From positions 1-64,000 of the forward strand of contig JAGWOC010000007.1 of the NCBI GenBank assembly GCA_028872875.1: a stretch of 64,000 nucleotides of DNA. The letters run 5' to 3'. Within the stretch, counting starts at the first letter, position 1; every line of letters starts with the position of its first letter. The DNA is from Chloroflexota bacterium. Its GTDB lineage: Bacteria > Chloroflexota > Dehalococcoidia > DSTF01 > JACRBR01. The notes under the pieces are model-generated. The model was not told the origin of the DNA, ran no database searches, and worked only from the letters and a program-made list of their open reading frames with translations. The position numbers and the translations under genes are program-made. Positions 26,428-49,178 of the stretch are shown piece by piece.

Positions 26428-27687
26428 TCAGCGCGCGATCGTGCCGCTGGGCTGGGCCGGCGTGGACGCGTTCGCGGCCGCGACCTGCTGCTTGTAGAGG
26501 GCGCCGTTCAGGTAGGCGAACACGCCGTCCGGGTTGTCCTGCCCGGGCGCCACCCAGACGTGCATCATCCACTTCAGGCTCGGCGTGAAGGTGCCGCCCT
26601 TGGCCGCGCAGCTCGCGGCGGTCTCTCCCTCGCTCGCGCTCTTGAGGCCGACGAGGCAGAGGCCGTTGTGCTCGTGCCAGAGCGCCAGGTTGCCAGCCCA
26701 GGTGTTCGTGGGCGGCGCACTGGCGGTGACGCCGCCGACGCCGGGCACCATCAGGTACCACACGCCGACGAGCTTCGCGGTGCCGCTGTTGTCGATCTTG
26801 CTGAACAGCAGCCCGCTCGGGCGGTTTGGATCGAAGACGCCGCTGCGGATCACGGCGTAGTTGACCCAGTGCTCGCCCATGTAGGGCACATCGCTCGTCG
26901 TGCGGACGTAGCCGGCGGCCTTCGCCGCGTCCGGCGTCGGGTACTTGAGCGCGACCTGGTGCACCTCCTCGAGCTGCTGGCGCAGCCTGGGGATGTCAGC
27001 GAGCGTCATCGTGCCGGGCGGAAACAGCGGCAGCAACTGCGCGTCGGTCAGCGTCACGATCTGCGTGTAGGTCGGCTGCTTGCCCTTGTCGTGCGCGCTG
27101 TGACCGCTCCCGTCCGCGCCCTGGGTCAGGGCGCCGGGGACGTTTGCCGCCGCGGTCGGCGCGGCGCCCGGGGCGAGGCCGTTCTGCTGCAAGCCCTGCA
27201 CGATGCCGCCGGACTCGGCCGTGGTGCCGGCACCGTGGTCGTGCGCGGGCGCGGCCGCCGTGGCGGTGCCGTGGCTGTGGCCGATCGTCGCGCCGGACGC
27301 CGCCAGATACGTGATCGACGCTACCGCGACGGCCGCCGTCAGCACCCACGCCGCCGTGACCGGCACGACCCGCCGCAGCAGCTCGCGGCGCGTCTCGATG
27401 CCCCGGAACGCGGAGATGCTGAGGCCGATGAGCGTGCTGACCCCCGTGAGTACGAGGCCGGCCGCCACCACCACATGCCCCGGGTTCGAGAAGCTCAGCA
27501 GGGACTCTTCGGCCGCGCTGTGGTTGTGGCGGTAGGCGTCCACGGCGAGCCCGATGAAGACGATGACCGTGCCGGACGCGGCCAGCGCGAACCACGTGGT
27601 CAGCGAGCTGACGAGCGCGAGGTTCATCGACCGCGCGCGCAGGGAGGTGGTGTGGTCGGTGTGTTCGAACCGGTCCATCGTTGTCAT
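26428..27687 (-). CDS. Membrane protein with His-rich loop and unknown extracytoplasmic domain
   Basis: 419 residues. Three predicted membrane helices (about 28-50, 70-92, 107-130) are followed by a His/Gly/Ala-rich segment (IGHSHGTATAAAPAHDHG and GSGHSAHDKGK). A domain of about 210 residues with conserved-looking MGEHWVNYAVI, LALWHEHNGLCLVG and MMHVWVAPGQDNPDG follows. The many His residues suggest metal (copper or zinc) binding. It lies 10 bases downstream of a TetR gene on the same strand, so that regulator probably controls it. I recognise no named family. Confidence 0.7.
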   Translation of the reverse strand: MTTMDRFEHTDHTTSLRARSMNLALVSSLTTWFALAASGTVIVFIGLAVDAYRHNHSAAEESLLSFSNPGHVVVAAGLVLTGVSTLIGLSISAFRGIETRRELLRRVVPVTAAWVLTAAVAVASITYLAASGATIGHSHGTATAAAPAHDHGAGTTAESGGIVQGLQQNGLAPGAAPTAAANVPGALTQGADGSGHSAHDKGKQPTYTQIVTLTDAQLLPLFPPGTMTLADIPRLRQQLEEVHQVALKYPTPDAAKAAGYVRTTSDVPYMGEHWVNYAVIRSGVFDPNRPSGLLFSKIDNSGTAKLVGVWYLMVPGVGGVTASAPPTNTWAGNLALWHEHNGLCLVGLKSASEGETAASCAAKGGTFTPSLKWMMHVWVAPGQDNPDGVFAYLNGALYKQQVAAANASTPAQPSGTIAR

Positions 27688-29082: not shown

Positions 29083-30141
29083 TCAGTGGCGAGCCACGAC
29101 GGTGAGACGCGGCGCCGCGTGCCCTTCGGACGTGTGCCCGCCACCCTCGATCACCTCGAACGCCGGGCGCGACGCGACGCGCTCCGCGACCCCGACCTGC
29201 TCGCCGTCCTGTGACATCGACGCGCGCGCGCGCTCCCAGACGAGCGCCGCGCGGGCGACGTCTCCGGCATTGGTGGCCGTCGCGTCATCGGCCCGGACCG
29301 CCGTCACGAAGACCTCCGCCGCCGCGGCGGCGCGATCCTGCACCTGGTCGACGGGATGCTCGCTCACGGTCTCGGCCCACTGGCCGGCGTACTTCGGCCC
29401 GCGATGCCGGCCGCTCGCCTGGATGAGCAGTGGCGCCTCGCGGTCGAGCGGTCGCAGCACGATCGTGCGCGCGTCGCAGCCGACCACCAGCTCGTGCCGC
29501 AGCGCCGGCTCGACGAGGCTGATGTCGATGCGCGCGACCGGGCCGCCATCGAACCAGAGCGTCAGCAGGGCAACGTCCGCGACGCCGTTCTCGTCGTCGA
29601 CGCGCGGGGTCAGCGCGCTGACGGCGGATGGCAGCCCGCCGGCGATCGCGAGCACCCGCCCGATGTCGGCGATCGCCAGCGCGTCGAGCGTCGCATCGCC
29701 CGCGAAGCCGGTGCGCAGCGCGCGCAGGTAGCGCGGGCGCCAGAGGGGGTTTGCGCCCGAGGTCATCTTGCGGACGAACTGGATCTGTTCGTCGCCGAGC
29801 GTACCGCCGTCAAAGACGATCGCGCGCCCGCGCCGCCGCGAGAGCTCGTCGAGCGCCATGATCTGCTTTGAGATCAGCGCCGGTGCGCCAGCGACGAAGA
29901 CGTGGCGCCCCGCGATCACCGCGCGCCGGATCGCGCCCGCCAGGTCCGCTACGGGTGGGACGAAGACGAAGCCGTCAACATCCCCGCGCGAGAGACCGGC
30001 CAGAAACTCCTCGTCGCCGGGCGCGATGCGGTCGAGCGTGACGCCTTCGATGCCGCGCAGCGCGCGCGCCCAGCGGTGCGCCTCCGGGCCTGTGCCCGCG
30101 AGCGTCAGCGTGATCGGCCGCGGCGAAGGTGTGGCTTCCAT
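29083..30141 (-). CDS. Gfo/Idh/MocA-like oxidoreductase, divergent
   Basis: 352 residues from ATG 30141. The first 120 residues form a Rossmann-type nucleotide-binding domain (LTLAGTGPEAHRWARAL, VFVPPVADLAGAIRRAV). A C-terminal alpha/beta domain (IDISLVEPALRHELVVG, CDARTIVLRPL) fits the Gfo/Idh/MocA fold. The diagnostic EKP motif is not visible, so catalysis is uncertain and a sensory or structural role is possible. Its ATG overlaps the sigma-factor TGA by one base (TGATG), so the two are translated together. It could modulate the sigma factor. Confidence 0.62.
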   Translation of the reverse strand: MEATPSPRPITLTLAGTGPEAHRWARALRGIEGVTLDRIAPGDEEFLAGLSRGDVDGFVFVPPVADLAGAIRRAVIAGRHVFVAGAPALISKQIMALDELSRRRGRAIVFDGGTLGDEQIQFVRKMTSGANPLWRPRYLRALRTGFAGDATLDALAIADIGRVLAIAGGLPSAVSALTPRVDDENGVADVALLTLWFDGGPVARIDISLVEPALRHELVVGCDARTIVLRPLDREAPLLIQASGRHRGPKYAGQWAETVSEHPVDQVQDRAAAAAEVFVTAVRADDATATNAGDVARAALVWERARASMSQDGEQVGVAERVASRPAFEVIEGGGHTSEGHAAPRLTVVARH

Positions 30142-34144: not shown

Positions 34145-35059
34145 CTACAGCGCGTGCACCTGCGCCGCTGACCGCAGCAGCTCGATGACGCCCTGGCGGA
34201 GCACGTGCTCCGGTGCCCAGCGGCCGGTGCCACGCAGCTTCGCGACGTCCAGGCAAGAGCGCCGGATCTCGCCACGCGCCGGAAGGCGCTCGATGAGCGT
34301 GTGCTCACCCGATGCTTCGACCATCAGCGCCGCCAGCTCGTTGACCGACGTCGGCGTACCGGTGCCGACGTTCCACACGCCGGTCATCGTATCGTCGTCG
34401 AGCGCCAGGAGGATCGCCGACGCAACATCGGCGACGTGCACGAAGTCGCGCTGCTGCTCGCCATCGCCGTAGATGCGCAGCGGCAGGCCGGCGGCCAGGC
34501 GCTCGCTGAAGATGCTCGCCACGCCGCCTTCGGCATCCGACCGCTGGCGCGGGCCATACACGTTCGAGAGACGCAGCGACACGCTCGAGATCGGCGCCGC
34601 TGCCACCATGGCCTCGCCCTCGAGCTTGTGGCGCCCGTAGGGATTTTCCGGGCGGGGTTGCGTCGCCTCGCTCGCGGGCACCGGCGTCTCGCCGTAGACC
34701 GCCCCGCCCGACGAGATGAACACGAACCGCCGTACTCCGCTTGCAAGGGCGCCATCGAGCACCCGCTCCAGGCCGTCGACGTTGATCCGCCGGTCGAGCA
34801 CCGGGTCGGCGAGCGAGCGCATGACGTTGGTCTGCGCGGCGCAGTGTACGACCGCGTCGAATGGGATCCCGAACAGCCTCCCCAGCGGCGACGCTGCCAT
34901 GTCGAGCACGTACAGCGGCACATCGACCGGGAGATTCGACACCTGCCCCTTGCTCAGGTCGTCCATCACGTGCGGCTCATCGCCGCGCGCACGCAGCGCC
35001 TCGACCACGTGCGAGCCGATGAAGCCGGCGCCGCCGGTCACAAGAATCCTTTGCGTCAT
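34145..35059 (-). CDS. NAD-dependent nucleotide-sugar epimerase/dehydratase (GalE-like)
   Basis: 304 residues of an extended short-chain dehydrogenase. The N-terminal NAD loop is GGAGFIGSHVVEALR. The catalytic Tyr and Lys are in YGRHK (YxxxK), preceded by SSGGAVYGE. RLSNVYGPRQRSD follows. It probably epimerises or dehydrates a UDP- or GDP-sugar. Last gene of the minus-strand glycan operon; its start overlaps the MFS stop by 4 bases. A second epimerase (38486-39409) is in the same operon. Confidence 0.88.
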   Translation of the reverse strand: MTQRILVTGGAGFIGSHVVEALRARGDEPHVMDDLSKGQVSNLPVDVPLYVLDMAASPLGRLFGIPFDAVVHCAAQTNVMRSLADPVLDRRINVDGLERVLDGALASGVRRFVFISSGGAVYGETPVPASEATQPRPENPYGRHKLEGEAMVAAAPISSVSLRLSNVYGPRQRSDAEGGVASIFSERLAAGLPLRIYGDGEQQRDFVHVADVASAILLALDDDTMTGVWNVGTGTPTSVNELAALMVEASGEHTLIERLPARGEIRRSCLDVAKLRGTGRWAPEHVLRQGVIELLRSAAQVHAL

Positions 35060-36360
35060 CGCCGTTCAACCTCCGCAGTACGCATCACCGGTGGCGACCC
35101 ACTGGCTGCCCCGACGGGTCGCGTCCGTCCTTCGTCGCGCGTGTCCGCGCCGTCCTCGATCCTCCGCACTACCGCGATCGCGCCGACCGCGAGGAACGAT
35201 GCACCCACGAGGAGCATCACCGATGCCGCCCCGAACGCCGGCAGCAGCAGCGCAGCGAGCGCGGGCCCGATCGAGTGGCCGAGCCCGTCCATCGACATGA
35301 ACCAGCCGATGATGCCACCGCGCGCGCCCGCCCCGCCGGCGAGCGCCATCATCGTCGAGGCGATGGTGGGCACCGCAAGCCCGAACCCGATGCCCCCGGC
35401 CGTCGCCGCGACAACGATCGTCGCCGGGTGCGTCCAGTGCGCGAGGACGAGCACGGCGATGCCGGCGGTGAAGAAGCCCGGAGCCATCACCCGGCGTGCG
35501 CCCACGCGGTCCGCGAGCGCGCCGCCAGCGACCACCCCCAGCCCGCCCAGGACCGCCGCCGGCGCGAGGAGGATCCCCTCGCGCGTCAGCGAGACATGGG
35601 CGATGTCGCGTCCGTACGCCCGGAAGATCGCCGTGAGCGCGCCGAGCGCGATCGACTCCGCCACGATGATCGCGGAGAACGCCACCCGCTGCGGCGAGCG
35701 CAGCACCGCCGGCAGCTCCCGCAGCGACGGCACCTCCGCCGTCTTCCGTTCCGCGGTCTCGCGCGCGCTCACCGGCGTACGCAGCGCGACCGTCAGCGCT
35801 GCCGCGACCAGGCTGATGGACATGAGCATCGCGATGTTGAAGGGCACGAACATGTTGAGGAGCGCGCCGCCCCCTAACCCCGTCAGGAGCGCGGCCATCG
35901 TCGCCAGGGTCAGCGCCGCCGTGAATCGCGACTTCTCGCCTGATTCGAAGCGCGACGTCCCCGCCGAGTACAGCGCCGGCCACAGCACGGAAGATCCGAG
36001 CCCTTCGACCGCCGCCGCCGCAACAATGGCGTACGGCGCGACGTGGGCCAGCGGCAGCATCGACGCGTCGGCCGCGAGGAGCAGCGCCGTACCGCCGATC
36101 ATGGCCGTCCGCGTCCCGAGCCGGTCCGACACCATGCCGCTCAGCACCTGAGAGCACAGCTTGGCGATGCCAAAGGCCGCCAGCGCGTAGCCCGCGATCG
36201 CCGCGCTCGCGTGCAGCTTCTCCGGGAGATACGACTGCAGGGCGATCAGGAAGATGAAGATGAACGCGGTGTCCGCGAGGAAGCCGATCGCGAGCAGCGG
36301 CAGGGCCCGCCGCGCGATGTCTCGCGACCCTGCGAGCGCATCCGTGATGCGGTGCAGCAT
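35056..36360 (-). CDS. Major facilitator superfamily transporter
   Basis: 434 residues with 12 predicted membrane helices, including the cytoplasmic loop GMVSDRLGTRTAMIGG (MFS signature DRxGxR) between helices 2 and 3 and its weaker repeat ALADRVGARRVMA. Its position between glycosyltransferase and epimerase genes suggests export or import of a sugar or lipid intermediate, but the substrate is unknown. ATG 36360 overlaps the preceding stop (TGATG). Confidence 0.87.
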   Translation of the reverse strand: MLHRITDALAGSRDIARRALPLLAIGFLADTAFIFIFLIALQSYLPEKLHASAAIAGYALAAFGIAKLCSQVLSGMVSDRLGTRTAMIGGTALLLAADASMLPLAHVAPYAIVAAAAVEGLGSSVLWPALYSAGTSRFESGEKSRFTAALTLATMAALLTGLGGGALLNMFVPFNIAMLMSISLVAAALTVALRTPVSARETAERKTAEVPSLRELPAVLRSPQRVAFSAIIVAESIALGALTAIFRAYGRDIAHVSLTREGILLAPAAVLGGLGVVAGGALADRVGARRVMAPGFFTAGIAVLVLAHWTHPATIVVAATAGGIGFGLAVPTIASTMMALAGGAGARGGIIGWFMSMDGLGHSIGPALAALLLPAFGAASVMLLVGASFLAVGAIAVVRRIEDGADTRDEGRTRPVGAASGSPPVMRTAEVERR

Positions 36361-38489
36361 CAGAGCCTCCCGCAGTCCTTCAGCGTGGCCGGCGCCGGCT
36401 CGCTGTCACGGAACGGCACGACGTCGTAGACGGTGATCCCCGCGTGGCGGCTCCGGTACGTGACGTGGGCCTCTCCCCGGCTCACGAGCGACTCCAGCAA
36501 CCGCTGCTCGTTGGTCGGGAACTCCGCGAGGTACGCGCGCTCCACCACCACACGGTCGATCCCCTTCACCGCCAGGTAGCACTGGTACGTGGGGAGCTTC
36601 CAGCTATGGCGCTGCTGGCTCTCGCTGAAAAACTCGTTGGCGAGCACGGCGTGGTCACGGAGGAGGTAGTAGCCGCCCTGCTCGCGCTCGTTGGGGCTGA
36701 GCACGCGGTACACCCTGCCGGGCCGGAAGTCAGGGCTCCGCAGGTAGCCGCGGTACGGGTCCGTATTGGGGTGGACGAGGCCGTAGTAGCTGCCTTCCGC
36801 CGCGAACTTGTGGATCACCGGCAGGTCGGCCAGCGCGGTGTGCCCGACGAAGCCCGAGCTGACCGCGACGACGGCCACCGTTGCCGCCAGGAACGCCATG
36901 CCAATCGACCGGAAGTGCCGTTCGAGCAGGGGCGCCAGCGCCGCCAGCAGGAACGGCGCGCCCATCACGAGCCCGCGCCGCGGCAGGTCCTGCATGATCG
37001 AGATCACGATGGTCTGCCGGGTGTTGTCGCCCACCGCCGGCGTGTTGAGCGAGAAGTAGATGAACGGCGTCAGCGCGGCCAGCACGACCCCGCTCACCGC
37101 CATGAGGGGGAGCCGCGTCCGCGGGCGGAAGAGTTCGCAGAAGACGACGTACGCCCCGACGGCCAGGCCTCCCTCGATGGGGTGGGTCGACGCCGTCAGC
37201 CACATGAAGATGGCCGCGAGGAGCCAGCGTTGCCGCTCCACCGACCACACCACGCCGAAGAACGCGACCGTCGCCCAGAGGAACGAATACTGTCCGGCGG
37301 CGACGGCATCGATGTAGAAGGGGTTGGCGAGGAACAGCAGCATCAGCCACGGGTCGCGCATCCGCGGCCGCACGATCATCGCACCGACCGCCACCGCCGC
37401 GCCCGCGAGCACCAGGAAGAGCGTCACGGACCAGTCGCCCAGCAGGGGATAGACGAGCGCATTCGCGGTCCATGGCACCATGCCGTACGGGAAGGTGAAC
37501 GCGCGCCCGTCATCGAGCCCCGCGAAGCGGATCGGGATCCGCCCGGTCTCATAGAGCGACCGGCTGATGTACCAGACGTGCGCGTAGTTGTTGATGGTGT
37601 CGTTCGCCAGGTAGATCGTCCGCGAGAGCATCACCAGCGCCGGCGCCAGCATCGCGAGGAAGAACAGCGGCAGGCCGTAGAACGCGAGCCAGCGCGGCAT
37701 GCCGTGTGGCAGGCGCCGCGTCGCCATCACCCGCCACCACGCGCAGGGCATGGCGACGAGGTCGATGACCACGTCCTTCAGCCGCGTCCGCGAGCGGAAG
37801 ACGGGGATATCGACGAGAGTCGTGTCGTGGATCTTGTAGCCGAGCAGCGGCAGGATCACCGCGACCTCGACGGTCTCGCTGTACTTGTAGCCCTTGTAGT
37901 AGGCCAGCGCGTCGAGGAGCGGGCCGACCTTGAACGCGCGGTAACCGGACTCGACGTCCTGAAACCGGCGCCCCGACCAGATCGACGCCCACGCCGACAT
38001 GATCCAGTTTCCGACCCGCTTGTACAGGGGATACAGCCGGAAGTCACGCCGCGCGATCACCGCGTCGGCGCCGTCCTCGATCGGTTTCAGCAGCAGGTCA
38101 AGGCTCGCCGGGTCGTGCTGGCCGTCGGCATCGACGGTGAGCACGACGTCGTCTTCGGAGATCTGCCCGGTCTCCACCATGCGCCGCAGGTGCGAGAACG
38201 CGGCGTAGTACGCGGCCGACATGCCGCGGTTCCGGTTGAACGAGATGAGGTGCGCATGCGGCTTGTCGTCAAGCCACTCGAAGACGACTTCGCGGGTGGC
38301 GTCCGATGACCCGTCATCGACGATGAGCAGGCGGTCGACCAGCGGGTAGAGCCGCTCCAGCACGCCGGCGATCGTCGCCGCTTCGTTGAAGGCCGGCATG
38401 ACGGCGATGAGCTGCGGCCGGCGCGTGCCGCGCTCTGGCGTCACGGCGGGGTTCGGCGCGGGCATCGGACGGACAGGCGACTCGATCAT
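36360..38489 (-). CDS. Glycosyltransferase family 2 (dolichol-P-mannose-synthase-like) fused to a multi-pass membrane domain
   Basis: 709 residues. Residues about 25-255 are a GT2 domain: AVMPAFNEAATI, VDDGSSDAT, DxD as DADGQHDP (D120, D122) and DVESGYRAFK. Residues about 265-600 carry around eight to nine membrane helices, with NDTINNYAHVWY (296-307) in the first outer loop. A soluble tail (about 600-700) ends the protein. The membrane part is paralogous to the 44164 protein. GT2 enzymes of this type transfer sugar to polyprenyl phosphate; the membrane part resembles GT-C transferases that use such donors, but this is inference. Start overlaps the previous stop (ATGA). Confidence 0.82.
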   Translation of the reverse strand: MIESPVRPMPAPNPAVTPERGTRRPQLIAVMPAFNEAATIAGVLERLYPLVDRLLIVDDGSSDATREVVFEWLDDKPHAHLISFNRNRGMSAAYYAAFSHLRRMVETGQISEDDVVLTVDADGQHDPASLDLLLKPIEDGADAVIARRDFRLYPLYKRVGNWIMSAWASIWSGRRFQDVESGYRAFKVGPLLDALAYYKGYKYSETVEVAVILPLLGYKIHDTTLVDIPVFRSRTRLKDVVIDLVAMPCAWWRVMATRRLPHGMPRWLAFYGLPLFFLAMLAPALVMLSRTIYLANDTINNYAHVWYISRSLYETGRIPIRFAGLDDGRAFTFPYGMVPWTANALVYPLLGDWSVTLFLVLAGAAVAVGAMIVRPRMRDPWLMLLFLANPFYIDAVAAGQYSFLWATVAFFGVVWSVERQRWLLAAIFMWLTASTHPIEGGLAVGAYVVFCELFRPRTRLPLMAVSGVVLAALTPFIYFSLNTPAVGDNTRQTIVISIMQDLPRRGLVMGAPFLLAALAPLLERHFRSIGMAFLAATVAVVAVSSGFVGHTALADLPVIHKFAAEGSYYGLVHPNTDPYRGYLRSPDFRPGRVYRVLSPNEREQGGYYLLRDHAVLANEFFSESQQRHSWKLPTYQCYLAVKGIDRVVVERAYLAEFPTNEQRLLESLVSRGEAHVTYRSRHAGITVYDVVPFRDSEPAPATLKDCGRL

Positions 38490-39409
38490 GCGCTGCGCAG
38501 GACCGCCCGCTCCTGCTCCAGGAACCAGTGCACCGTGCGTTCCATGCCGGTATCGAAGTCCACCTTGGGCGTCCAGCCGATCTCGCGGGCGGCCTTTGCC
38601 GACGAGACCTGCTTGCCGGCGTAGTCTCCGGCGCGCGCCGGCACGAACTCGATCCCCTTGCCGCCGACGAGCCGGTGGACCGTTTCGGCGATGCGCAGGA
38701 TGGACACCTCCTCGGCGCCATCGATGTTGTACGTCTCGTTCTCCGCCTCCGGCGCGAGCGCCAGCACGTGGGCGTCCGCCAGGTCTTCGACGTACACGAA
38801 CTTGCGGTTCTGGCTGCCGTCGCCCGCCACGGTCATCGGCTCGCCGCTCAGGGCCTTGCGGATGAAGATCGGGATCACGAGCGAGGGCCGCATCCGCGGG
38901 CCGTACGGGATCCCGTAGCGCAGGACCGTGAACGGGACGTTGAAGAGTGTCCGGTAGTCGTGGCAGAGCATCTCCGAGGCGATCTTTGTCGTCGTGTAGA
39001 CGTGGCCCGTCTGCGCGGGGTCGAAGCACGACCGCTCGTCCACGCGCTGCTCCCGCGCCGCGCTGTACACCCAGACGGTGCTCGCCAGCACGACGCGCCG
39101 CAGGCCGTTCCGCCGCGCCGATTCGAGCACGTGCGCCGTGCCGAGCACGTTGAGGGCGACGGAACCGGTCGGGTCTGCGACGACGTTGTTCACGTCGGCC
39201 ACCGCGGCGAGGTGGAACACCACATCGAGCCCGCGCGTCGCCCTGTCCAGCGCGTCCTGGTCCATGATGTCCACGGCCAGGCACTCCACGTCGTCGCGGT
39301 GCGGCCGCGCGACGCTGTCGAGCACGCGCACGTCCACGTGCGCGTCCTTCAGCTTGTCGACGACGTGCGAGCCGATGAACCCACAGCCGCCGGTCACACC
39401 CACCTTCAT
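38486..39409 (-). CDS. NAD-dependent nucleotide-sugar epimerase/dehydratase
   Basis: 307 residues of an extended short-chain dehydrogenase. It starts MKVGVTGGCGFIGSHVVDKL. LASTVWVYSA is followed by YTTTKIASE with the catalytic Tyr and Lys (YxxxK), then RYGIPYGPRMRPS. Produces a nucleotide sugar for the GT2 fusion. It follows the DegT gene with no gap (stop 39410, start 39409) and overlaps the GT2 gene by 4 bases, so translation is coupled. Confidence 0.88.
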   Translation of the reverse strand: MKVGVTGGCGFIGSHVVDKLKDAHVDVRVLDSVARPHRDDVECLAVDIMDQDALDRATRGLDVVFHLAAVADVNNVVADPTGSVALNVLGTAHVLESARRNGLRRVVLASTVWVYSAAREQRVDERSCFDPAQTGHVYTTTKIASEMLCHDYRTLFNVPFTVLRYGIPYGPRMRPSLVIPIFIRKALSGEPMTVAGDGSQNRKFVYVEDLADAHVLALAPEAENETYNIDGAEEVSILRIAETVHRLVGGKGIEFVPARAGDYAGKQVSSAKAAREIGWTPKVDFDTGMERTVHWFLEQERAVLRSA

Positions 39410-40543
39410 CTACGCCTCCGTCGCCACGCGCTGCTCCGCGAGCGCCTTTACCAGGGACTCGACGACGTACGCCGCGTCATCGTCCGGCATGACCGCGGAC
39501 ACCGGCAGGCAGATGTGCCGGGAGCAGAGCTCCTCGGCGACCGGCAGGCTGCCCGCCGCCTGCGGGCCGAAGACCGGCTGCAGGTGGCACGGCGCCTCGT
39601 AGACCTCGCCGCTGAGGCCGACGTCGTACCGCTCGCGCAGCGTCTTCTTGAGCGCGCTCCGGTCGACGCCCGCCGGCGGCATCGCGATGTACTTGTAGTA
39701 GTTGCAGGTCGACCCCTCGGGGATGCGCAGGGGCTCGACGCCGGTGCCCGCGAGCAGCCGGTCGTAGACGGCCGCCACCCGCTGGCGGGCGGCGATGAAC
39801 TCCGGAAGCCGCGCCAGTTGCGAGCCGCCGATGATCGCGTGCGGCTCGCTGAGCCGCCAGTTGTTGCCAAGCAGCGTGTGGAAGTTCGAGGTGAAGCCGG
39901 CCTTGCCCTGGTCGCGGTAGACGCGCGCCTGCTCGTCGATCCGGTCGTCGCTGGTCGCGATCATGCCGCCTTCGCCGGCGGTGATCACCTTCGTCGGATA
40001 GAAGGAGAAGGCAGCCGCGATACCGAAGCTGCCCGCCGGCTTCCCGCCGAGCGTGCTGCCGTGCGCGTGCGCCGCGTCTTCGACCAGCGGCACGCCCGCC
40101 CGGGCACAGATGCCCTGGAGTTCGGCGATGCGCGGCGTGATGACGCCGCCGATGTGCACGACGACGACGGCGCGTGTCTTCGGGCCCAGCAGCGAGCGCA
40201 CGTGGTCTACGTCGATGGAGAAGGTCGCGGGGTCGCACTCGGCAAAGCGCACGACGCCGCCCGCGTGCTCGACAGCGGCGGGCGTGGCGAAGAACGTGTT
40301 CGTCGGCACGATGACCTCGCCGCCGGCGACGCCGATGGCGCGAAAGATGATCTCCAGCGCGCTCGTGCCGCTGCTCGTCGCGATCGCGTGCGTGGTGCCC
40401 GCCGTCCTGGCGAACGCCTCCTCGAACGCGGCACCGTGCTTTCCGAGCGTCAGTTGCCCGGAGGCAAGGCAGGCGTCGATTGCTGCCAGGATCTGCGTCC
40501 GGTCTTCTTCCGGGATGTGGATCTTCGCGGGGGGGATTCGCAT
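39410..40543 (-). CDS. DegT/DnrJ/EryC1/StrS-family sugar aminotransferase (or PLP dehydratase)
   Basis: 377 residues from ATG 40543, 3-4 bases after GGAAGG. PLP-fold signatures: TSSGTSALEIIFRA, EDAAHAHGSTLGGKPAGSFG, and SFYPTKVITAGEGGM with the Schiff-base Lys. These enzymes install amino groups on keto-sugar nucleotides. First gene of the minus-strand glycan operon. Three 11-bp repeats of an OmpR-type regulator site lie 79-104 bases upstream. The ATG at 40567 was rejected because it overlaps a Shine-Dalgarno-like stretch. Confidence 0.9.
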   Translation of the reverse strand: MRIPPAKIHIPEEDRTQILAAIDACLASGQLTLGKHGAAFEEAFARTAGTTHAIATSSGTSALEIIFRAIGVAGGEVIVPTNTFFATPAAVEHAGGVVRFAECDPATFSIDVDHVRSLLGPKTRAVVVVHIGGVITPRIAELQGICARAGVPLVEDAAHAHGSTLGGKPAGSFGIAAAFSFYPTKVITAGEGGMIATSDDRIDEQARVYRDQGKAGFTSNFHTLLGNNWRLSEPHAIIGGSQLARLPEFIAARQRVAAVYDRLLAGTGVEPLRIPEGSTCNYYKYIAMPPAGVDRSALKKTLRERYDVGLSGEVYEAPCHLQPVFGPQAAGSLPVAEELCSRHICLPVSAVMPDDDAAYVVESLVKALAEQRVATEA

Positions 40544-40653: not shown

Positions 40654-42009
40654 CTATGGATTCGCGAGCGGCAGTTCCACCTGTACCGTCGTGCCCGCCG
40701 GCGACGTGTGGAGCGCGACCGAGCCCCCGTGCGCCTCGGCGATATGGCGCACGATGGCGAGCCCGAGGCCGCTGCCATCGCCGTGCCGCTTGCGCCCGTC
40801 GCGGCCGCGGAAGAAGCGCTCGAAGGCGTGGCGCGCCTCGTCCTCGCTCATCCCCGGCCCTCCATCGCGGACTTCGGCGATCGCCTGCCGGCCGTTCGCG
40901 CGCAGGGTGACGCCGATCGGCTTCCCCGGCTCCGAGTACAACGCCGCGTTGTCGATGAGGTTCTCGAAGATCTGCCCGACGCGCTGTTCGTCCGCGTCAA
41001 TGCGCAACGGCCCCTCCGGCACATGGACGTCGATCTGGCGGTCGCGGAAGCGCTGCTGTTCGCGTTCCGCCACCGTCCGCGCGATGTCGGCGAGGTCGAC
41101 GGGTTGCCGCTGCAGGATGAGGCGCGCGTCGACCTGCGAGAGGAGCAGCAGGTCCGCGAGGATGCGGCTCATCCTCCGTGACTCCGCTTCGGTCTCCGCG
41201 ATGACCTGCTCGCGGTCCTCCGGCGGCAGGGCGCCGCCGCGCAGCACCTCCAGGTTCCCGCGCATCACCGCGAGCGGGCGCCGCAGCTCGTGCGACGAAT
41301 CCGCGAGAAATGCGCGGTGCGCGTCGAGGGTCGTCTCGACCTTGGCGATCAGCTCGTTGAGGGTGCGCACGAGGTCGCCGACCTCGCCGCGCTGCTCCTC
41401 GCCTTCGATCCGCCGGGAGAAGTCGCCCGTCGCCTCGATCTCGCCGGCGGTGTCCGTCGCCGCGCGGATGGGCTGCAACGCGGGTCCGGCGAAGACGTAC
41501 GAGAGGCCGTTCGCGACGAGCAGCGCGAGCACGCCGCCGCCGATCAGCAGGATGCGGATGAGGTCGAGCGCGGCATCGGTCTGGTGGAGCGAGCGCGCGA
41601 CGAGGAGCGTGTTCCCGTCCTGCAGGGGCTGGTAGAGGATGCGCACCCGCTCGTCGTTCGAGGTGTCGTGCGTCGCGAGCGCCGCGGCATTGCCGCCCTT
41701 GTGCTTCGCCGCGATCGGCAGCTCCGAGGTGAGGTTGCTCGACTTCTCGATCGGGACGCCTTCCGGGTTGAGGACCTCGGCGTACACGCCGGGATCGGCG
41801 ATCTCGTCCAGCACCGTCTGGTTGAGCTGGACGCTGCCGTTGGCGGCCGGCGGGCGGCTGGTGATCTGGTGCGCGCGCACGTACAGCGAGTCATCGACCG
41901 ACGCGTAGAGCCGCGCCGAGATCCGCAGGTAGACGATCACGCCGAAGACGGCGAGCACCGCCGCGAAGAGCAGGCTGTAGAGCAGCGTCAGCCGGAAGCG
42001 GAGCGACAC
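40654..42009 (-). CDS. Sensor histidine kinase (HAMP, HisKA, HATPase)
   Basis: 451 residues; GTG start at 42009 immediately after the regulator's stop. Two membrane helices (about 8-28 and 150-172) flank an extracytoplasmic sensor of about 115 residues with no recognised fold. HAMP is at about 175-225. Phospho-acceptor H240 lies in FLADSSHELRRPL. The ATPase core has N-box ENLIDNAALYS, G1 RDGGPGMS and G2 GDGSGLGLAIV. With the preceding regulator it forms a classic two-component pair. Signal unknown; it may report cell-surface state. Confidence 0.92.
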   Translation of the reverse strand: MSLRFRLTLLYSLLFAAVLAVFGVIVYLRISARLYASVDDSLYVRAHQITSRPPAANGSVQLNQTVLDEIADPGVYAEVLNPEGVPIEKSSNLTSELPIAAKHKGGNAAALATHDTSNDERVRILYQPLQDGNTLLVARSLHQTDAALDLIRILLIGGGVLALLVANGLSYVFAGPALQPIRAATDTAGEIEATGDFSRRIEGEEQRGEVGDLVRTLNELIAKVETTLDAHRAFLADSSHELRRPLAVMRGNLEVLRGGALPPEDREQVIAETEAESRRMSRILADLLLLSQVDARLILQRQPVDLADIARTVAEREQQRFRDRQIDVHVPEGPLRIDADEQRVGQIFENLIDNAALYSEPGKPIGVTLRANGRQAIAEVRDGGPGMSEDEARHAFERFFRGRDGRKRHGDGSGLGLAIVRHIAEAHGGSVALHTSPAGTTVQVELPLANP

Positions 42010-42708
42010 CTAGGCCTGCCTGAGCACGTATCCGAACGAGCGCACCGTCTGGACGAGCCGCGACCGGCCGCCGGCTTCGAGCTTCTCCCGCAGGTGGCCG
42101 ACGTGCACGTCCAGGTAATTCGAGTCGCCGCCATCGTATCCCCAGACCTGGAGCGTTACGGCATCGCGCTTCAGCACCGTCTCCGGATTGCGCATGAAGA
42201 TCTCGAGCAGCCGGTACTCCGTGGGCGTGAGCTCGATCCCTTCGCCCCGGCGCGTCACCACGTGGCGTCGCGTGTCCAGCACGACGTCCGCGTAGGTCAG
42301 CGTTTCTTCGGACGCCGAAGGGCGCTCCGCGCGCCGCAACAGCGCCCGCATGCGCGCCGCGAGCTCGGCCAGCTCGAACGGCTTGGTGAGGTAGTCATCC
42401 GCGCCCGACTCCAGGCCCAGGATCCGGTCCGGCACGGTGTCCCGCGCCGAGAGCATGAGGATTGGCATATCGTTGGTCCGGCGCAGGTGGCGGCACAGCG
42501 AGACGCCGTCGAGGTCGGGCATCGTCACGTCCAGGACGGCGACATCGACGCTCTTCGTCTCGATGTACGCGATCGCCTCCTGGGCGTCGGCGAACGTCTC
42601 GACGTCGAAGCCGTGGACGCGCAGCCCGCGCTTCAGCACGCGCAGCAGCCGCTCGTCGTCATCGACGACAACTGCCTTCGCGACCCGCTGGCTGGCCAAT
42701 GCGTTCAT
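42010..42708 (-). CDS. Response regulator, OmpR/PhoB family
   Basis: 232 residues. The receiver domain has the acidic pocket DDDER, phospho-acceptor D60 (VAVLDVTMP), Thr/Ser switch LSARD and K109 (LTKPF). The C-terminal winged-helix (ELTPTEYRLLEIFMRN, GDSNYLDVHVGHLREKLE) is OmpR-type and binds tandem 10-11-bp repeats. TATCAT on the minus strand (42726-42721) is a possible -10, giving a short leader. Likely target: the repeats at 40622-40647 and thus the glycan operon. Confidence 0.93.
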   Translation of the reverse strand: MNALASQRVAKAVVVDDDERLLRVLKRGLRVHGFDVETFADAQEAIAYIETKSVDVAVLDVTMPDLDGVSLCRHLRRTNDMPILMLSARDTVPDRILGLESGADDYLTKPFELAELAARMRALLRRAERPSASEETLTYADVVLDTRRHVVTRRGEGIELTPTEYRLLEIFMRNPETVLKRDAVTLQVWGYDGGDSNYLDVHVGHLREKLEAGGRSRLVQTVRSFGYVLRQA

Positions 42709-42830: not shown

Positions 42831-44165
42831 TCAGCACGGGACGTAGCCCGGCTTGCCGAGCAGCTTGTCGAGGCGCACCGGCTGCAATCCGCGCGCCTTC
42901 AGGCCGTCGAGGATGATCGGCAGCGCCTGCAGGATGACGGTGCGGTTGGCGCCGATGTTCCCATCGATCCCGTCGTGGAGCAGGATGATCGAGCCGGGCC
43001 GGACACCCTTGAGGATGCGGCGCGCGACGAGCTGGCCGTCGTTGGTCGCCCAGTCGCCGGCGGAGTCGTCCCAGGTGATCATCGTCATCCCGTGGTCCGC
43101 CACCACGTGCGCGATGAACGGCGTGTGGCTCCCGTGGGGGGGCCGGTAGAAGGCCGGGCAGACGCCGAGGTTGCGCTTGAAAGCGTCCTGCGCCCGCTGC
43201 AGCTCCGGGTAGCGCGGGTCGAGCCAGCGCACCGCATCGTGGAGGTACGAGTGGTTGCCCAGGAGGTGGCCATCGGCCATCAGCGCCCGCGAGGCGTCGG
43301 GGCGCTTGTCCAGCGCCTTGCCGACGGTGAAGAACGTCCCCTTCACGCCGTGGGCATCGAGGATCGCGGCGATCTCCTCCGTGTACGGCGGGTTGGGGCC
43401 GTCGTCGAAGGTGATGGCGACCTCGTTGCCCGTGCGCGGGCCGTGGCTCGTCAGGCTGCCGAACCAGGTCGCGCGCGGCGTCGTCGCGCCGATGTAGGCG
43501 GCGGTGACACCCGGCAGCAGCAGCGAGAACGCCGCCGCCGGCGCGAGCGCCACGGCACGCCAGCGGCGGCCCGGCATCGCAAGCAGCGCCGCGGCGCCGG
43601 CGAACGCGACGTACGCGGCCCCGGCGGCCATCGCCCCGTCGCGGCCGAAGAGCGCGCGCACGCCGACCAGCAGCCCGGCGACGACGAGCGACGCCACGGC
43701 GGCCGCCGCTGCTCCGCGCTTCCAACCGCCCGCGCCGGCCGGTCGCCGCCCGCCGGGCGCGCCCGACGCCGCGCCGGACACGAGGCCGATGCCGACGCCC
43801 AGGGCCGGTGCGGTGAACCATGCCGCGGCGTAGTACGACGCCTGCGCGAGCAACCACGCCGACACGAGCGCGCCGAAGAGCCCGAGCAGCCCGATGAGGC
43901 GTGGGGCGCGCACCCGCGCGCTCAGCGCCCAGCACCCGAACGCGATCGCGGCGGCCACCGCGCAGCGCAGCGGCGACGCGTACACCGGGCTTGCCGCGAT
44001 CGCGATGGCCGCGAGCACGGTCACGCCCGGCAACCCGGGCGCGGTCAGCGCCTGCGGCCGCCGCACCCAGGCCCGGATATGTGCATGGCCCGCGAGCGCG
44101 GTGTCCGCCGCGGCCGACGCTGGTTCCGCACGCGGCGCGTCTATACCATGTCCCACGTTGCGCAT
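42831..44165 (-). CDS. Membrane-anchored polysaccharide deacetylase (NodB homology, CE4)
   Basis: 444 residues. The first ~225 residues hold seven or eight predicted membrane helices of low complexity. The C-terminal NodB domain has ITFDDGPNPPYTEE (catalytic base Asp-Asp), GNHSYLHD (the two metal-binding His), RPPHGSH, ITWDDSAGDW and GSIILLHDG. It should remove acetyl groups from GlcNAc- or other amino-sugar polymers outside the membrane. The start ATG 44165 overlaps that of the divergent gene at 44164. A TAGACT box 8 bases before it suggests a leaderless mRNA. Confidence 0.85.
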   Translation of the reverse strand: MRNVGHGIDAPRAEPASAAADTALAGHAHIRAWVRRPQALTAPGLPGVTVLAAIAIAASPVYASPLRCAVAAAIAFGCWALSARVRAPRLIGLLGLFGALVSAWLLAQASYYAAAWFTAPALGVGIGLVSGAASGAPGGRRPAGAGGWKRGAAAAAVASLVVAGLLVGVRALFGRDGAMAAGAAYVAFAGAAALLAMPGRRWRAVALAPAAAFSLLLPGVTAAYIGATTPRATWFGSLTSHGPRTGNEVAITFDDGPNPPYTEEIAAILDAHGVKGTFFTVGKALDKRPDASRALMADGHLLGNHSYLHDAVRWLDPRYPELQRAQDAFKRNLGVCPAFYRPPHGSHTPFIAHVVADHGMTMITWDDSAGDWATNDGQLVARRILKGVRPGSIILLHDGIDGNIGANRTVILQALPIILDGLKARGLQPVRLDKLLGKPGYVPC

Positions 44166-44179: not shown

Positions 44180-45486
44180 ACGCACGGGGCGGGCGCGCGG
44201 CGCTCCTCGTCCTCGTGCGTCCGATGGGCCGTCCCGGGGGGATGGTCCTGCTCGGTGCCTCCGCCGCCCTGGCGGTGATCCTCGCCCTCATCCTGCGCCA
44301 CCCGATCTTCCTCACCAACGACTCGATGAACGACTACGCGCACGTGTGGTACGTGTCCGATCGGCTGTGGTCCGGACACGGCCTGCCGGTGCACATGCCG
44401 GTGCTCGCCCACGGGCGCGCCTACGCGTTCCCGTACGCGTTCATCCCGTGGACGCTCGCCGCGCTCGTGCGGCCGCTGCTGGGGGACTGGGCCGTGACGC
44501 TCGGGCTCGTGCTGGGCGTTCTGGCCGTTGTTGCGGGCACGCTCGTCGGGTTCCCGGAGATGCGCCGGCCCTGGTGGGCGGCGATGGTGATCCTCAACCC
44601 GGTGCTCCTCGAAGGGCCGCTGCTCGGCCAGATGCCGTTCCTCTGGGCGGCGGCGTTCCTGATGTTCGCGATCGCCGCCTGGCGCGGCGGGCGGACGCTG
44701 CTCGCCGGCCTGCTCGCCGGCTGCGCCGGCGCGACCCATCCCGCGGTGCTGCTGCCGCTGATCGGCGCGCTGGTGCTCGTCCGCATGCGGTGGGAGCCGC
44801 GCCGGGGGCGCCTCGTGGCGGCGTACGTCCTCTCGCTCGTCCTCGCGGCCCCGGCGGCGTACTTTACGCTCGCCTCGCCGGTGTTCAGCGAGACGAGCGT
44901 GCCGCGGATCGTCGCCAACTTCTTTGGCACCGTCGGGCTGCGCGCCCTCGTGCCGGCGGCGCCGTTCATCGGCCTGGCGCTCCAGCGCACGCCCCTGGCG
45001 CGCGCGCCGCTGCTCATCGTCGCCGTGCTGATCGCCCTCAACGCCGCGTTCGTGCCGCTGCGGCACGACGCGTACGCCTGGCGCGGGCTGATGCGCGAGC
45101 CCGACCGCTCCCTCGACGGCTTCTTCCAGTCCGGCCGCTTCGTGCCCGGCGCGACGTACCGCGTCCTTGCGGCGGGCGATGCGAAATACGGCATGTACCA
45201 GGCCCTGCGTCACGGCGCCGTGCTGGACTCGGAGTTTTTTCCCGAGAGCATGGCGCTGCGGAGCTGGCCGTCCGAGCACGCCTACGGCGACTTCCTGCGA
45301 AAGCGCACGATCGATTACGTGATCATCTTTGGCGCGTACGACCGCGGCTACGGCACCAACGAGCACGCGCTGCTGCGCGCGATGGCGGCGCGCGGCCCGG
45401 TCACCGGGCGCGTCTGCGTGCGCGCCATCGAGCACCGGCCGCTGTACGATGTCTACGCCATCGCCCGCGCCGGTTGCCGGGCCTGA
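44164..45486 (+). CDS. Multi-pass membrane protein, paralogue of the GT2-fusion membrane domain
   Basis: 440 residues with about eight or nine membrane helices and a soluble tail of ~110 residues. It shares with the protein at 36360-38489 the outer-loop motif NDSMNDYAHVWY (residues 52-63, there NDTINNYAHVWY), GRAYAFPYAFIPWT, PLLGDWAVTL, the THP in the middle and the tail pattern GATYRVLAAGD...EFFPES...TNEHALL...YDV. The acidic/His pair in the first loop is what GT-C glycosyltransferases use, so a lipid-linked-sugar transferase is a hypothesis. ATG 44224 or 44242 are alternative starts. Confidence 0.7.
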   Translation: MRRKSNARGGRAALLVLVRPMGRPGGMVLLGASAALAVILALILRHPIFLTNDSMNDYAHVWYVSDRLWSGHGLPVHMPVLAHGRAYAFPYAFIPWTLAALVRPLLGDWAVTLGLVLGVLAVVAGTLVGFPEMRRPWWAAMVILNPVLLEGPLLGQMPFLWAAAFLMFAIAAWRGGRTLLAGLLAGCAGATHPAVLLPLIGALVLVRMRWEPRRGRLVAAYVLSLVLAAPAAYFTLASPVFSETSVPRIVANFFGTVGLRALVPAAPFIGLALQRTPLARAPLLIVAVLIALNAAFVPLRHDAYAWRGLMREPDRSLDGFFQSGRFVPGATYRVLAAGDAKYGMYQALRHGAVLDSEFFPESMALRSWPSEHAYGDFLRKRTIDYVIIFGAYDRGYGTNEHALLRAMAARGPVTGRVCVRAIEHRPLYDVYAIARAGCRA

Positions 45487-46084: not shown

Positions 46085-48484
46085 CTATTGCGACGGCCGC
46101 TGGGTGAACGCGTCGCGCAGAAAGTTCACCAGGTTCCAGATGTCGGTTGGCGAGAACGCCGAACCAAACGCCGGCATCGCCGTGCCCGCGTAGCCGTCGT
46201 GGATGAAGGCGTAGAACTGCGGGTCCGTGTGCAGCGGCATGTGCTGCCTGAAGTCCGATGGCGCCGGACTGAGCTGCGCCGCCTGCGGGCCGTTGCCGCG
46301 CCCGTCGATGCCGTGGCACTGGACGCAGTTCTGCTGGAACAAGAGCTTCCCGCGCGCGATCGAGGCCTGCGTCGGCTGTACCGGGTTACCGGCGGTCGGG
46401 TCCGCCGCTGTGCCGTGCGTGCCGACGCCGAACGCCAGCACGGCGCCGGCGAGCAGGACAGCCGTCGCGCCCGTGACCGTCGTCCGGTAGCCGGCGCTCA
46501 GCACGTGGATCTGGCGCCGGTAGACGAGGACCAGCCCGCCGCCGAGGGCGAGGACCGCGCCCAGGACCTGGTTCCAGTTGAACACGGTGAACGGCAGTTC
46601 GAAGGGACTGCCGCCCCGCACGATGCTTGCGGGCGCCTTCGCGACCGGCAGCAGGAATGCCTCCGAGACATCGTCGCCCACGCTGCGGCGGATCGTCACG
46701 TCGATGCGCCAGTTGCCCTGAGCCGTGAAGTACACGCCGGCGCCCTTGTACTCGCCGGGGTTGAAGCGCGTGAGCAGGATCTCCGACGGTGCGACGGCAT
46801 TCGGCGCGTCCGGATAGCTGAAGCGGAGGCGCGCCAGCGTCACGGTCGTCGTCGGGCTGCCGTCCGGGTTGCGGATGTCGAGCGTGTATTCGTTGACGGT
46901 GTCGGCCTGGTTGGGAGACACCCGCAGCTCGAAGTTGAGTCCGCCCTTCGTCGCCTTCTGGTCGAACTTCGTCGGCGCCGCCTTCGCCGCCTGCTCCGAA
47001 GCGATCTGGCCGGCGGCCGTCGCCGTCTGGGTGAGGACGCCGACCGCGGCGAAGATGGCGAGCACGAGCGCGATCTCGGCCGCCACCGTCGGCACGAGCA
47101 GCCCGCGCAGCCGCCGCAGTTGGGGCGTCCACTGCGCCCGCGTCTGCTCGGAGGCGGTGCCCCCCTGCTGGTACAGCGTATCGATGGCGGCGACGAGGCG
47201 CGGCTTCAGGATGAAGGCGTTGAAACCCGCGACCGCCAGCAGCGGCAGGAGCAGCGCGATCTTGGCGAGCAGCACGCGGCCGTACGCGGTGTCGATCATG
47301 GCGCTCGCCGTCGGCACGGCGGCGAGGCCGTTGAAGGTCCCGGTCGCCAGGATCGTGGCCACGCTCAGCGCCGCCAGCACCGAGAAGCGGTCGAACACGT
47401 TGGCGATGTAGAGCCAGCGCGCCGCGTCCTCGATCGCCTGCCGGCGCCAGCGCAGGAACATCAGGATCATCACCAGGGCGCCGAGCCACGCCGCGGAGGC
47501 GAGCAGGTGCAGGAAGTCCGAGGTCACGGCCCAGAACTTGCCGTTGTCCGCGGCCGCGTGGCTCACGATCGAGTACGTGAACAGCGCGCCGGTCGTGGCG
47601 GCGATCATGAGCCCCAGACCGGCGTGGCGCTTCACGCGGGAGTTCCCAAGGAAGAGGAGGTCACTGCCTCCCAGGGCCAGCGCGGTCAACAGCAGGCGCG
47701 CCAGTGTGAACTGCCCGACGCGTACCGTCGTGACGTACGACCAGAGGCTCGTATCGGTAGAGAACCGCCGCACCGTCAGCAGCAGCAGGATCCCGGAGGC
47801 GATGAACGCGACGGGCAGGAGCACGTGCGCCAGGGAGATCGCCCAGCGCTCGGCGGTGTCCGTCACGCGGAGGTAGTCCTCGTCCTCCAGGAAGGAGGCC
47901 GCCGGCCGCATGACGGCGAAGAGGAAGAACGCCGCGCCCGCGACCGTCGCGAGCGACAGCAGCGAGAGCCACTTCAGCGCCGAGTCGAGGTTCGCCGGCA
48001 GGAGCTGGCCCCCGCTCGACGTCGCGCCCGTGAGCGAATTCGCGGTGATGCCGGCCGGGAACGAGCCATCCGGGTTTAGGACGACGAACGGATATTGACC
48101 GCTCAGCTCGTGACCATCGACGGCGGACACGTTGCTCCAGCGGACGAAGTACAGCCCGGGCGCGAGGTTCTTCACGCCGACCGACGCGAACGTCGGGTCG
48201 CTGTTATCGAACGCCATGTCGTTGGTGTCGACGCGCTTCTGCTTCTCGTCGAGCACCTGGATCTGCGTGAGGCGGCGCTCGATCGCCTCGCTGAACCGCA
48301 GGATGATGCGCGTCGGCGGCCGCGTCAGTTTGTCGTTGTTCGTCGGCGTCGCGCTGACAAGTGAGGCGTGCGCCTGCGCCACGCCCGCGAAATAGGGGGA
48401 GGTGATCGCCGCCACCACGACGGCGATCATCCCCAAGAGCATCAAGAACCGCTGCTTGCTTCCGATCACAGCTTCACCCCGCAC
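46085..48484 (-). CDS. CopC-CopD-YtkA-like-cytochrome c fusion protein
   Basis: 799 residues. Signal peptide (~1-38, GVAQA cleaved before HASL), CopC-like cupredoxin-type domain (~39-135, VSAVDGHELSG), CopD membrane domain with about eight helices (~160-490, YSIVSHAAAD, FLHLLASAAWLGAL). Then a beta-rich YtkA/FixH-like domain (~505-620), another helix and a haem c domain with CVQCH (720-724) and axial Met770 in GTAMPAF. It combines copper handling with electron transfer across the membrane. GTG 48484 follows GGAGG; GTG 48469 is an alternative. Confidence 0.85.
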   Translation of the reverse strand: MRGEAVIGSKQRFLMLLGMIAVVVAAITSPYFAGVAQAHASLVSATPTNNDKLTRPPTRIILRFSEAIERRLTQIQVLDEKQKRVDTNDMAFDNSDPTFASVGVKNLAPGLYFVRWSNVSAVDGHELSGQYPFVVLNPDGSFPAGITANSLTGATSSGGQLLPANLDSALKWLSLLSLATVAGAAFFLFAVMRPAASFLEDEDYLRVTDTAERWAISLAHVLLPVAFIASGILLLLTVRRFSTDTSLWSYVTTVRVGQFTLARLLLTALALGGSDLLFLGNSRVKRHAGLGLMIAATTGALFTYSIVSHAAADNGKFWAVTSDFLHLLASAAWLGALVMILMFLRWRRQAIEDAARWLYIANVFDRFSVLAALSVATILATGTFNGLAAVPTASAMIDTAYGRVLLAKIALLLPLLAVAGFNAFILKPRLVAAIDTLYQQGGTASEQTRAQWTPQLRRLRGLLVPTVAAEIALVLAIFAAVGVLTQTATAAGQIASEQAAKAAPTKFDQKATKGGLNFELRVSPNQADTVNEYTLDIRNPDGSPTTTVTLARLRFSYPDAPNAVAPSEILLTRFNPGEYKGAGVYFTAQGNWRIDVTIRRSVGDDVSEAFLLPVAKAPASIVRGGSPFELPFTVFNWNQVLGAVLALGGGLVLVYRRQIHVLSAGYRTTVTGATAVLLAGAVLAFGVGTHGTAADPTAGNPVQPTQASIARGKLLFQQNCVQCHGIDGRGNGPQAAQLSPAPSDFRQHMPLHTDPQFYAFIHDGYAGTAMPAFGSAFSPTDIWNLVNFLRDAFTQRPSQ

Positions 48485-48515: not shown

Positions 48516-49178
48516 TCACCGCCGCCGTCCGAACGCCAGCCAGCCGCCGCCCGCGGCCACGATCACGATCACGGCGATGCCCACGCCGATCCCGATGTTG
48601 CGGCCGGTGTTGCTGCCGCCGCCCGTGCTGGCCGCGGGCGTCGCCCCCGCGGCGGGCGCTGTGACGGCGGCGGTCGCGACAGGCGCTGCTGTGCCGGCGG
48701 CCTCGGCCGTCGTCCCTGCCGCCGGCGACGCGTTCTCGGCGCTGACCGTCGCGAGTTGCGCATCGTTCGACAGGTCAACAGTCGTCGGTTGCACCTTCAC
48801 GTAGAACGAGAAGGTGCCGTGGTACTTGTCGCCGTCGGCGTCCGACACGTTCTTGTAGTTCACCACGTAGCGCCCCGCGGGCAGGTCCGGCTGCAGCGGC
48901 ACCGACAGCTTCGCCCGGTCGGTGTTGTCGATGACGGCCGGCCCGGCCGTTACGGGCTGGCCGCCGCCGTTCAGCACCTGGATATCGTACGTGCCGGCCA
49001 CCTTCTGGATGTCTTCCGTGAACGTGATCACGACCTGCGCCGGCGAGGCCTGCAGGACCTCGCCCACGGCCGGCGTCGAGCTCTTGAGCCGCGCATGCGC
49101 CAGGGCGACGTTCGGCGCCAGCGCCATCACCGCGGTCAGGCCGAGCGCAACGGTCGCGAGCATCACGCGTAATCTCAC
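48516..49178 (-). CDS. CopC-domain copper-binding protein, C-terminally anchored
   Basis: 220 residues. Signal peptide ending at about ALA, exposing His of HARLKSSTP, the N-terminal copper ligand typical of CopC. A beta-sandwich follows (TFTEDIQKVAGTYDI, YKNVSDADGDKYHGTFSF). An Ala/Thr/Pro-rich linker (~145-190), membrane helix and FGRRR tail complete it. AGGAGG precedes both TTG 49181 (7 bases) and GTG 49178 (10 bases); either may be the start. Binds copper outside the cell, next to the CopC-CopD fusion. Confidence 0.85.
   Translation of the reverse strand: MRLRVMLATVALGLTAVMALAPNVALAHARLKSSTPAVGEVLQASPAQVVITFTEDIQKVAGTYDIQVLNGGGQPVTAGPAVIDNTDRAKLSVPLQPDLPAGRYVVNYKNVSDADGDKYHGTFSFYVKVQPTTVDLSNDAQLATVSAENASPAAGTTAEAAGTAAPVATAAVTAPAAGATPAASTGGGSNTGRNIGIGVGIAVIVIVAAGGGWLAFGRRR

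Follow-up and report, generated by a model that had tools for sequence, protein, structure and literature searches.

Organization of the operon

The window, i.e. the whole stretch of 64,000 nucleotides that was analysed, carries on its reverse strand an operon with the gene order response regulator, histidine kinase, DegT aminotransferase, SDR, GT2/GT-C fusion, MFS transporter and SDR. The fusion gene (36360..38489, (-)) is an intact ORF, the 709-aa product of which combines a GT2 glycosyltransferase domain with a GT-C-like membrane domain. The operon is headed by an OmpR/PhoB-type response regulator (42010..42708, (-); Response_reg and Trans_reg_C domains) and a sensor histidine kinase (40654..42009, (-); HisKA, HATPase_c and HAMP domains). 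These are followed by an ArnB/perosamine-synthetase-like sugar aminotransferase of the DegT/DnrJ family (39410..40543, (-); PF01041, E=1.7e-98), which has perosamine synthetase as its best PDB match and shares 30% amino acid sequence identity with E. coli ArnB (E=1e-39).

The first sugar epimerase of the SDR type (38486..39409, (-); PF01370) overlaps the start of the fusion gene (ATGA), and its nearest solved structures are UDP-Glc 4-epimerase and UDP-GlcA decarboxylase; the SDR comparison with ArnA gave 23% identity. Although the best NCBIfam profile for this protein is that of dTDP-glucose dehydratase, its assignment as a 4,6-dehydratase was rejected, since it reads STVWVY at the place of the dehydratase motif TDEVYG, and an epimerase-like role is therefore preferred. 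Downstream, the start of the MFS transporter gene (35056..36360, (-); PF07690, E=2e-34) overlaps the stop codon of the fusion (TGATG). The best NCBIfam profile for the transporter is the LtaA flippase, at 50 bits, well below the cut-off; judging from the gene order, it is probably this protein that does the flipping. The last gene encodes the second SDR epimerase (34145..35041, (-); PF01370), the operon position of which is conserved. Neither a formyl- nor an acetyltransferase was noted among the operon's products.

The gene order DegT-epimerase-GT2/TM-MFS-epimerase, pointed out in the first-pass annotation of this DNA, indeed recurs across loci, headed by the two regulatory genes and sometimes with a deacetylase gene inserted between the MFS and the last SDR gene. 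Among the 11 loci with DegT and sufficient sequence for assessment, 10 have the two-component pair upstream of the aminotransferase gene. In several fused loci of one family (f5) the DegT, SDR and MFS genes are missing, the minimal unit of this family being the fusion and the deacetylase, plus the MFS gene in some cases.

The GT2 half of the fusion protein

By sequence, the identity of the N-terminal domain (residues 27-255; 37725..38411, (-)) as GT2 is certain: residues 30-167 match the Pfam family PF00535 with E=9.6e-22 and 78.1 bits versus a cut-off of 23.3. The DxD motif, here DAD at residues 120-122 (38124-38132, (-)), lies inside this domain, and both D120 and D122 are invariant among seven aligned fused members. 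The nearest NCBIfam profiles are AglJ, ArnC and, slightly lower, PpgS, all polyprenyl-phosphate enzymes and all scoring well below their cut-offs (39.5 bits versus a curated 529 in the case of the ArnC equivalog NF007986). A comparison with ArnC revealed 25% identity (E=8e-16). The best PDB matches are ArnC, GtrB and DPMS; the same enzymes account for nearly all of ranks 1-20 in the Foldseek search with the full-length model, where they are matched via the GT2 half. Sequence and modelling together place this half among the GT2 polyprenyl-phosphate glycosyltransferases of the ArnC/GtrB/DPMS type; a DPM-synthase-like enzyme of polyprenyl-phosphate type had already been put forward in the first-pass annotation.

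The possibility that the fusion arose as an artefact of assembly or gene calling was considered and rejected, because the same single reading frame recurs in 20 of the 34 family members, in independent assemblies. One of these 20, from a metagenome assembly (G201; L089:8387-10658), is split by what looks like a frameshift, its GT2 and membrane halves occupying two overlapping frames.

The membrane half

The region after residue 260 has no sequence match in Pfam, NCBIfam or PDB. Pfam GT-C families, including PMT_2 (PF13231) and YfhO, find no match in any of the 34 members, and hhalign detected no sequence link of the family either to seven PMT_2 proteins (probability 6.8%) or to E. coli ArnT (probability 0.2%). 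The RYA and YFEKP motifs of ArnT (PMC5377068) are likewise absent, save for YA. The new GT-C family inferred in the first-pass annotation is supported in so far as the family is missing from Pfam and the PDB.

The fold was approached by AlphaFold modelling, for which only eight sequences served as input in both models. The model of residues 259-709 reached a pLDDT of 70.5 and a pTM of 0.69; that of the full-length fusion was weaker (66.7 and 0.48, respectively). In a Foldseek search of the membrane half against PDB, ArnT occupies ranks 1 and 2 (E=2.8e-4 and 5.4e-4; probability 1.00), followed by PglB, ALG12, AftA, PIG-U and ALG9, whereas the non-GT-C proteins among the matches listed have a probability of at most 0.66. 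The membrane half of the full-length model also matches ArnT, at ranks lower than those of the GT2-half matches. Several features of the GT-C superfamily are seen: about 9-10 predicted TM helices (versus 8-13 in the superfamily), the GT-C fold matches and an acidic residue, D297, in the first outer loop of all 34 members. Hence, the GT-C nature of this half, as the first-pass annotation had suggested, is well supported. Since the membrane half matches ArnT best and the GT2 end ArnC best, by fold the protein amounts to an ArnC-ArnT fusion. The TM-scores against ArnT are nevertheless moderate (0.43-0.47) and a profile link to PMT_2/ArnT is lacking, so that the membrane domain is most appropriately regarded as a separate GT-C-like family.

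With its 9-10 or so predicted helices, the membrane domain proper (residues 266-546; 36852..37694, (-)) comes close to the 8-9 that were counted initially; that count, however, left undescribed an extracytoplasmic alpha/beta C-terminal tail of about 135 residues (575-709; 36363..36767, (-)), which consists of strands and helices in the AlphaFold models. The motif NDTINNYAHVWY (N296 to Y307; 37569..37604, (-)) follows TM1 (modelled at residues 267-289) and belongs to the first outer loop, where an Asp-containing motif had been claimed. Within it, D297 and Y302 are kept in 34/34 members and H304 in 33/34, so that the motif is no chance occurrence. According to the membrane-domain alignment, Asp297, Tyr302, Pro319, Gly328, Pro334, Tyr335, Gln400, Trp405, His436 and Arg505 are invariant in all 34 members, as are Y594, R595, F621, Y635 and E661 of the tail. 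Invariant polar residues are found in the outer loops and the outer tail.

Distribution of the membrane domain

In a profile search, 28 of 393 genomes from a single Chloroflexota class, Dehalococcoidia, turned out to carry the membrane domain; in a phylum-wide sample of 400 genomes it occurred in three only, all of that same class. A search of genome contigs yielded five loci, again exclusively Chloroflexi/Dehalococcoidia. The viral contigs scanned contained no relative of the membrane domain and gave only generic GT2 matches. No described GT2~GT-C fusion was found in the literature searched, which, given its partial coverage, is weak evidence; architectures were compared within this class.

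The 34 aligned members originate from 28 genomes. The fusion turned out to be shared by related genomes, 20 members being fused to GT2 and 14 unfused. The fused members are spread over distant families of the membrane domain, and the fused state has changed at least five times on the tree. Eight unfused members, including a paralogue from the window, form one clade with a support of 100/100, and some unfused members have no GT2 gene nearby. In two genomes (G004 and G219) the GT2 gene of the operon is unfused and the membrane half is gone, while a standalone GT-C paralogue is located nearby.

Deacetylase and standalone paralogue

The first-pass annotation did not include the two-component system, nor two further genes next to it. 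One of these encodes a polysaccharide deacetylase of the NodB family (42831..44165, (-); PF01522, E=9.8e-26) that has TM segments at its N-terminus and intact TFDD, HSxxH, RPPxG and LLHD motifs. The other, divergent from the deacetylase gene, encodes the standalone GT-C-like paralogue (44206..45486, (+)) of at most 426 aa, with an uncertain start (44206-44242); it shares 35% identity over 414 residues (E=8e-60) with residues 261-672 of the fusion protein. The host genome contains only these two copies of the membrane domain and one GT2 of the fusion's kind.

Of 32 loci, 27 have a NodB-family deacetylase gene in the vicinity of the membrane-domain gene, and the five without it include four short contigs. 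This makes it the most faithful companion of the GT-C gene, fused or unfused, ahead of any other gene. As the genomes hold just one or two NodB-family genes as a rule (0 to 3 in 20 genomes), such companionship is not due to chance. The companion deacetylases keep their catalytic motifs and start with a TM, signal or lipoprotein-like segment; therefore, they most likely act outside. Their nearest solved relatives are peptidoglycan and chitin deacetylases, and the NCBIfam profiles matched are PdaB, PgdA and NodB, so that the deacetylase may act on a polymer. ArnD was matched by BLASTP with E=0.16 only, and no ArnD profile was present among the NCBIfam matches.

In three genomes (G201, G259 and G271) the MFS protein carries the deacetylase as a C-terminal fusion, which suggests that the remaining two steps of the route are joined as well. 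These candidate flippase~deacetylase proteins (L087:6542-8590, L089:10601-12643 and L096:6828-8852) are connected via an extra TM helix.

Host envelope

LpxC was detected in none of 12 host genomes and FtsW/RodA in all 12, in agreement with the description of the class envelope as monoderm, with an S-layer and, in part, peptidoglycan (PMC10284905). The absence of LpxC implies that the acceptor cannot be lipid A; the candidates are a secondary wall polymer, peptidoglycan, S-layer protein or a lipid.

Comparison with known systems

In the Arn (Pmr) pathway of E. coli and Salmonella, ArnB, ArnC, ArnD, ArnT and ArnEF operate under the control of PmrAB. The present gene set resembles it in that the two halves of the fusion match ArnC and ArnT best by fold and that it, too, comprises a DegT aminotransferase, a GT2, an SDR, a NodB-type deacylase, a transporter and a two-component system. 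It differs in that the ArnC- and ArnT-like parts form one protein, an MFS protein replaces ArnEF, the deacetylase is unrelated to ArnD by BLAST, the SDRs lack the formyltransferase half of ArnA, lipid A is missing as an acceptor, and the GT-C half cannot be linked to ArnT by sequence. ArnT depends on residues of the first outer loop (Tyr43 and Lys69), of the second (Arg254) and of the outer C-terminal tail (Glu493), as described in PMC5377068. The membrane family is similar in layout: a Tyr belongs to its first outer loop, and an invariant Arg and an invariant Glu occur in a later loop and in the tail, respectively.

Polyprenyl-P-GalNAc routes are represented by FlmF2/NaxD/FlmK of Francisella and PpgS/Rv3779 of mycobacteria. 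As in the route proposed here, an N-acetyl amino sugar is attached to polyprenyl phosphate, deacetylated and then transferred by a GT-C enzyme, and the NCBIfam profiles that match the GT2 half best include PpgS, with a score far from its cut-off; the genes of those systems, however, are separate and their acceptors are different. NaxD and FlmF2 are mentioned in the literature (PMC8149597). The three-part schemes of teichoic acid glycosylation (CsbB-YfhO, GtlA-GtlB and GtcA; PMC5836110, PMC7389260) represent the general scheme and also rely on a cytosolic GT2, flipping and an outside GT-C in Gram-positive-type envelopes, but GT2 and GT-C are encoded there by separate genes, and DegT and the deacetylase have no part in them. 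On the whole, the set would operate in the manner of the Arn/Pmr and the NaxD- and PpgS-type decoration systems but belongs to none of them. Its membership in Arn is contradicted by a score below the ArnC cut-off, by the missing relation to ArnT and ArnD and by the absence of lipid A.

Proposed mechanism and alternative explanations

The explanation that best accounts for the whole is that the fusion unites two successive transferases of one lipid-linked sugar route (estimated probability about 0.6). The DegT and SDR enzymes would prepare the sugar, probably an N-acylated amino sugar. As homology suggests, the cytosolic GT2 half would then move it from the nucleotide to polyprenyl phosphate, and the overlapping MFS gene points to its product as the protein that would flip the lipid-linked sugar across the membrane. 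On the outer face, the membrane-anchored or secreted NodB-family deacetylase might strip the acyl group either before or after transfer. Finally, as its fold and invariant residues suggest, transfer of the sugar to an envelope acceptor would fall to the GT-C half, equipped with Asp297 in its first outer loop and with the outer tail. The standalone paralogue may serve as an additional GT-C transferase in this route, which the two-component system would control. A product may be handed over between the halves of the fusion; direct coupling would be helpful at most and is not required, since the MFS protein is separate, 14 of the 34 members are unfused and the GT2 stands alone in two genomes.

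The amino-sugar character of the pathway is moderately supported. It is challenged by an explanation that we consider unlikely, if still to be reckoned with, in which the GT2~GT-C coupling is kept but the sugar is an ordinary one that is not de-acylated, the deacetylase being merely co-regulated and acting on peptidoglycan or a GlcNAc polymer. The relatives and profiles of the deacetylase, the peptidoglycan genes of the hosts and the absence of DegT and SDR genes from some fused loci all fit this explanation, whereas the close companionship of the deacetylase with the GT-C gene and the MFS~deacetylase fusion of three genomes speak against it.

Two other explanations concern the membrane half itself. 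GT2-GtrA and GT2-membrane fusions are common, which would suit a flippase or transporter of the GT2 product, comparable to GtrA beside a GT2; in connection with GT2-membrane fusions, the archaeal DPMS structure may be cited (PMC5526996). A transporter fold was nevertheless rejected, as all confident fold matches are GT-C enzymes, and with a separate MFS gene overlapping the fusion stop, invariant polar residues in the outer loops and tail, and a standalone paralogue adjoining the deacetylase gene, such a function is most improbable. The two points on which the first-pass annotation had let its GT-C reading depend thus came out in its favour: no transporter fold was matched with confidence and the motif is conserved in homologues. 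It is also very improbable that the GT-C half spends a donor other than the product of its own GT2, or polymerises, with the fusion serving co-localisation only. Such independence would agree with the 14 unfused members, some of them without a nearby GT2 gene, and with two GT-C paralogues beside one GT2 of this kind in the window genome, but it is difficult to reconcile with 20 of 34 members being fused across distant families and with the position of GT2/GT-C between sugar-making and flipping genes in the operon.

Returning to the two-transferase route, we would put forward, tentatively and at somewhat under even odds, the wider proposal that a class free of lipid A independently runs an Arn-like amino-sugar decoration under two-component control, with consecutive steps physically linked, GT2 to GT-C and in some genomes also the MFS flippase to the deacetylase, and with an undescribed GT-C family. 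Lipid-linked sugar routes normally employ separate enzymes on the two membrane faces. A single protein with both steps, beside a flippase that is fused to a deacetylase in relatives, would offer a compact test case for channelling across the membrane and would add a GT-C family unknown to Pfam. Dehalococcoidia would gain a candidate surface amino-sugar pathway, suggesting that the Arn-like logic of two-component control, amination, lipid carrier, deacylation and GT-C does not depend on lipid A.

Other genes of the window

Elsewhere in the window, a 799-aa protein (46085-48484, (-)) contains CopC, CopD and cytochrome c domains with a weak YtkA match between them, and a second CopC protein is encoded nearby (48516-49163, (-)). 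Two long predicted genes (26428-27678, (-) and 29083-30141, (-)) have no Pfam match at 1e-6.
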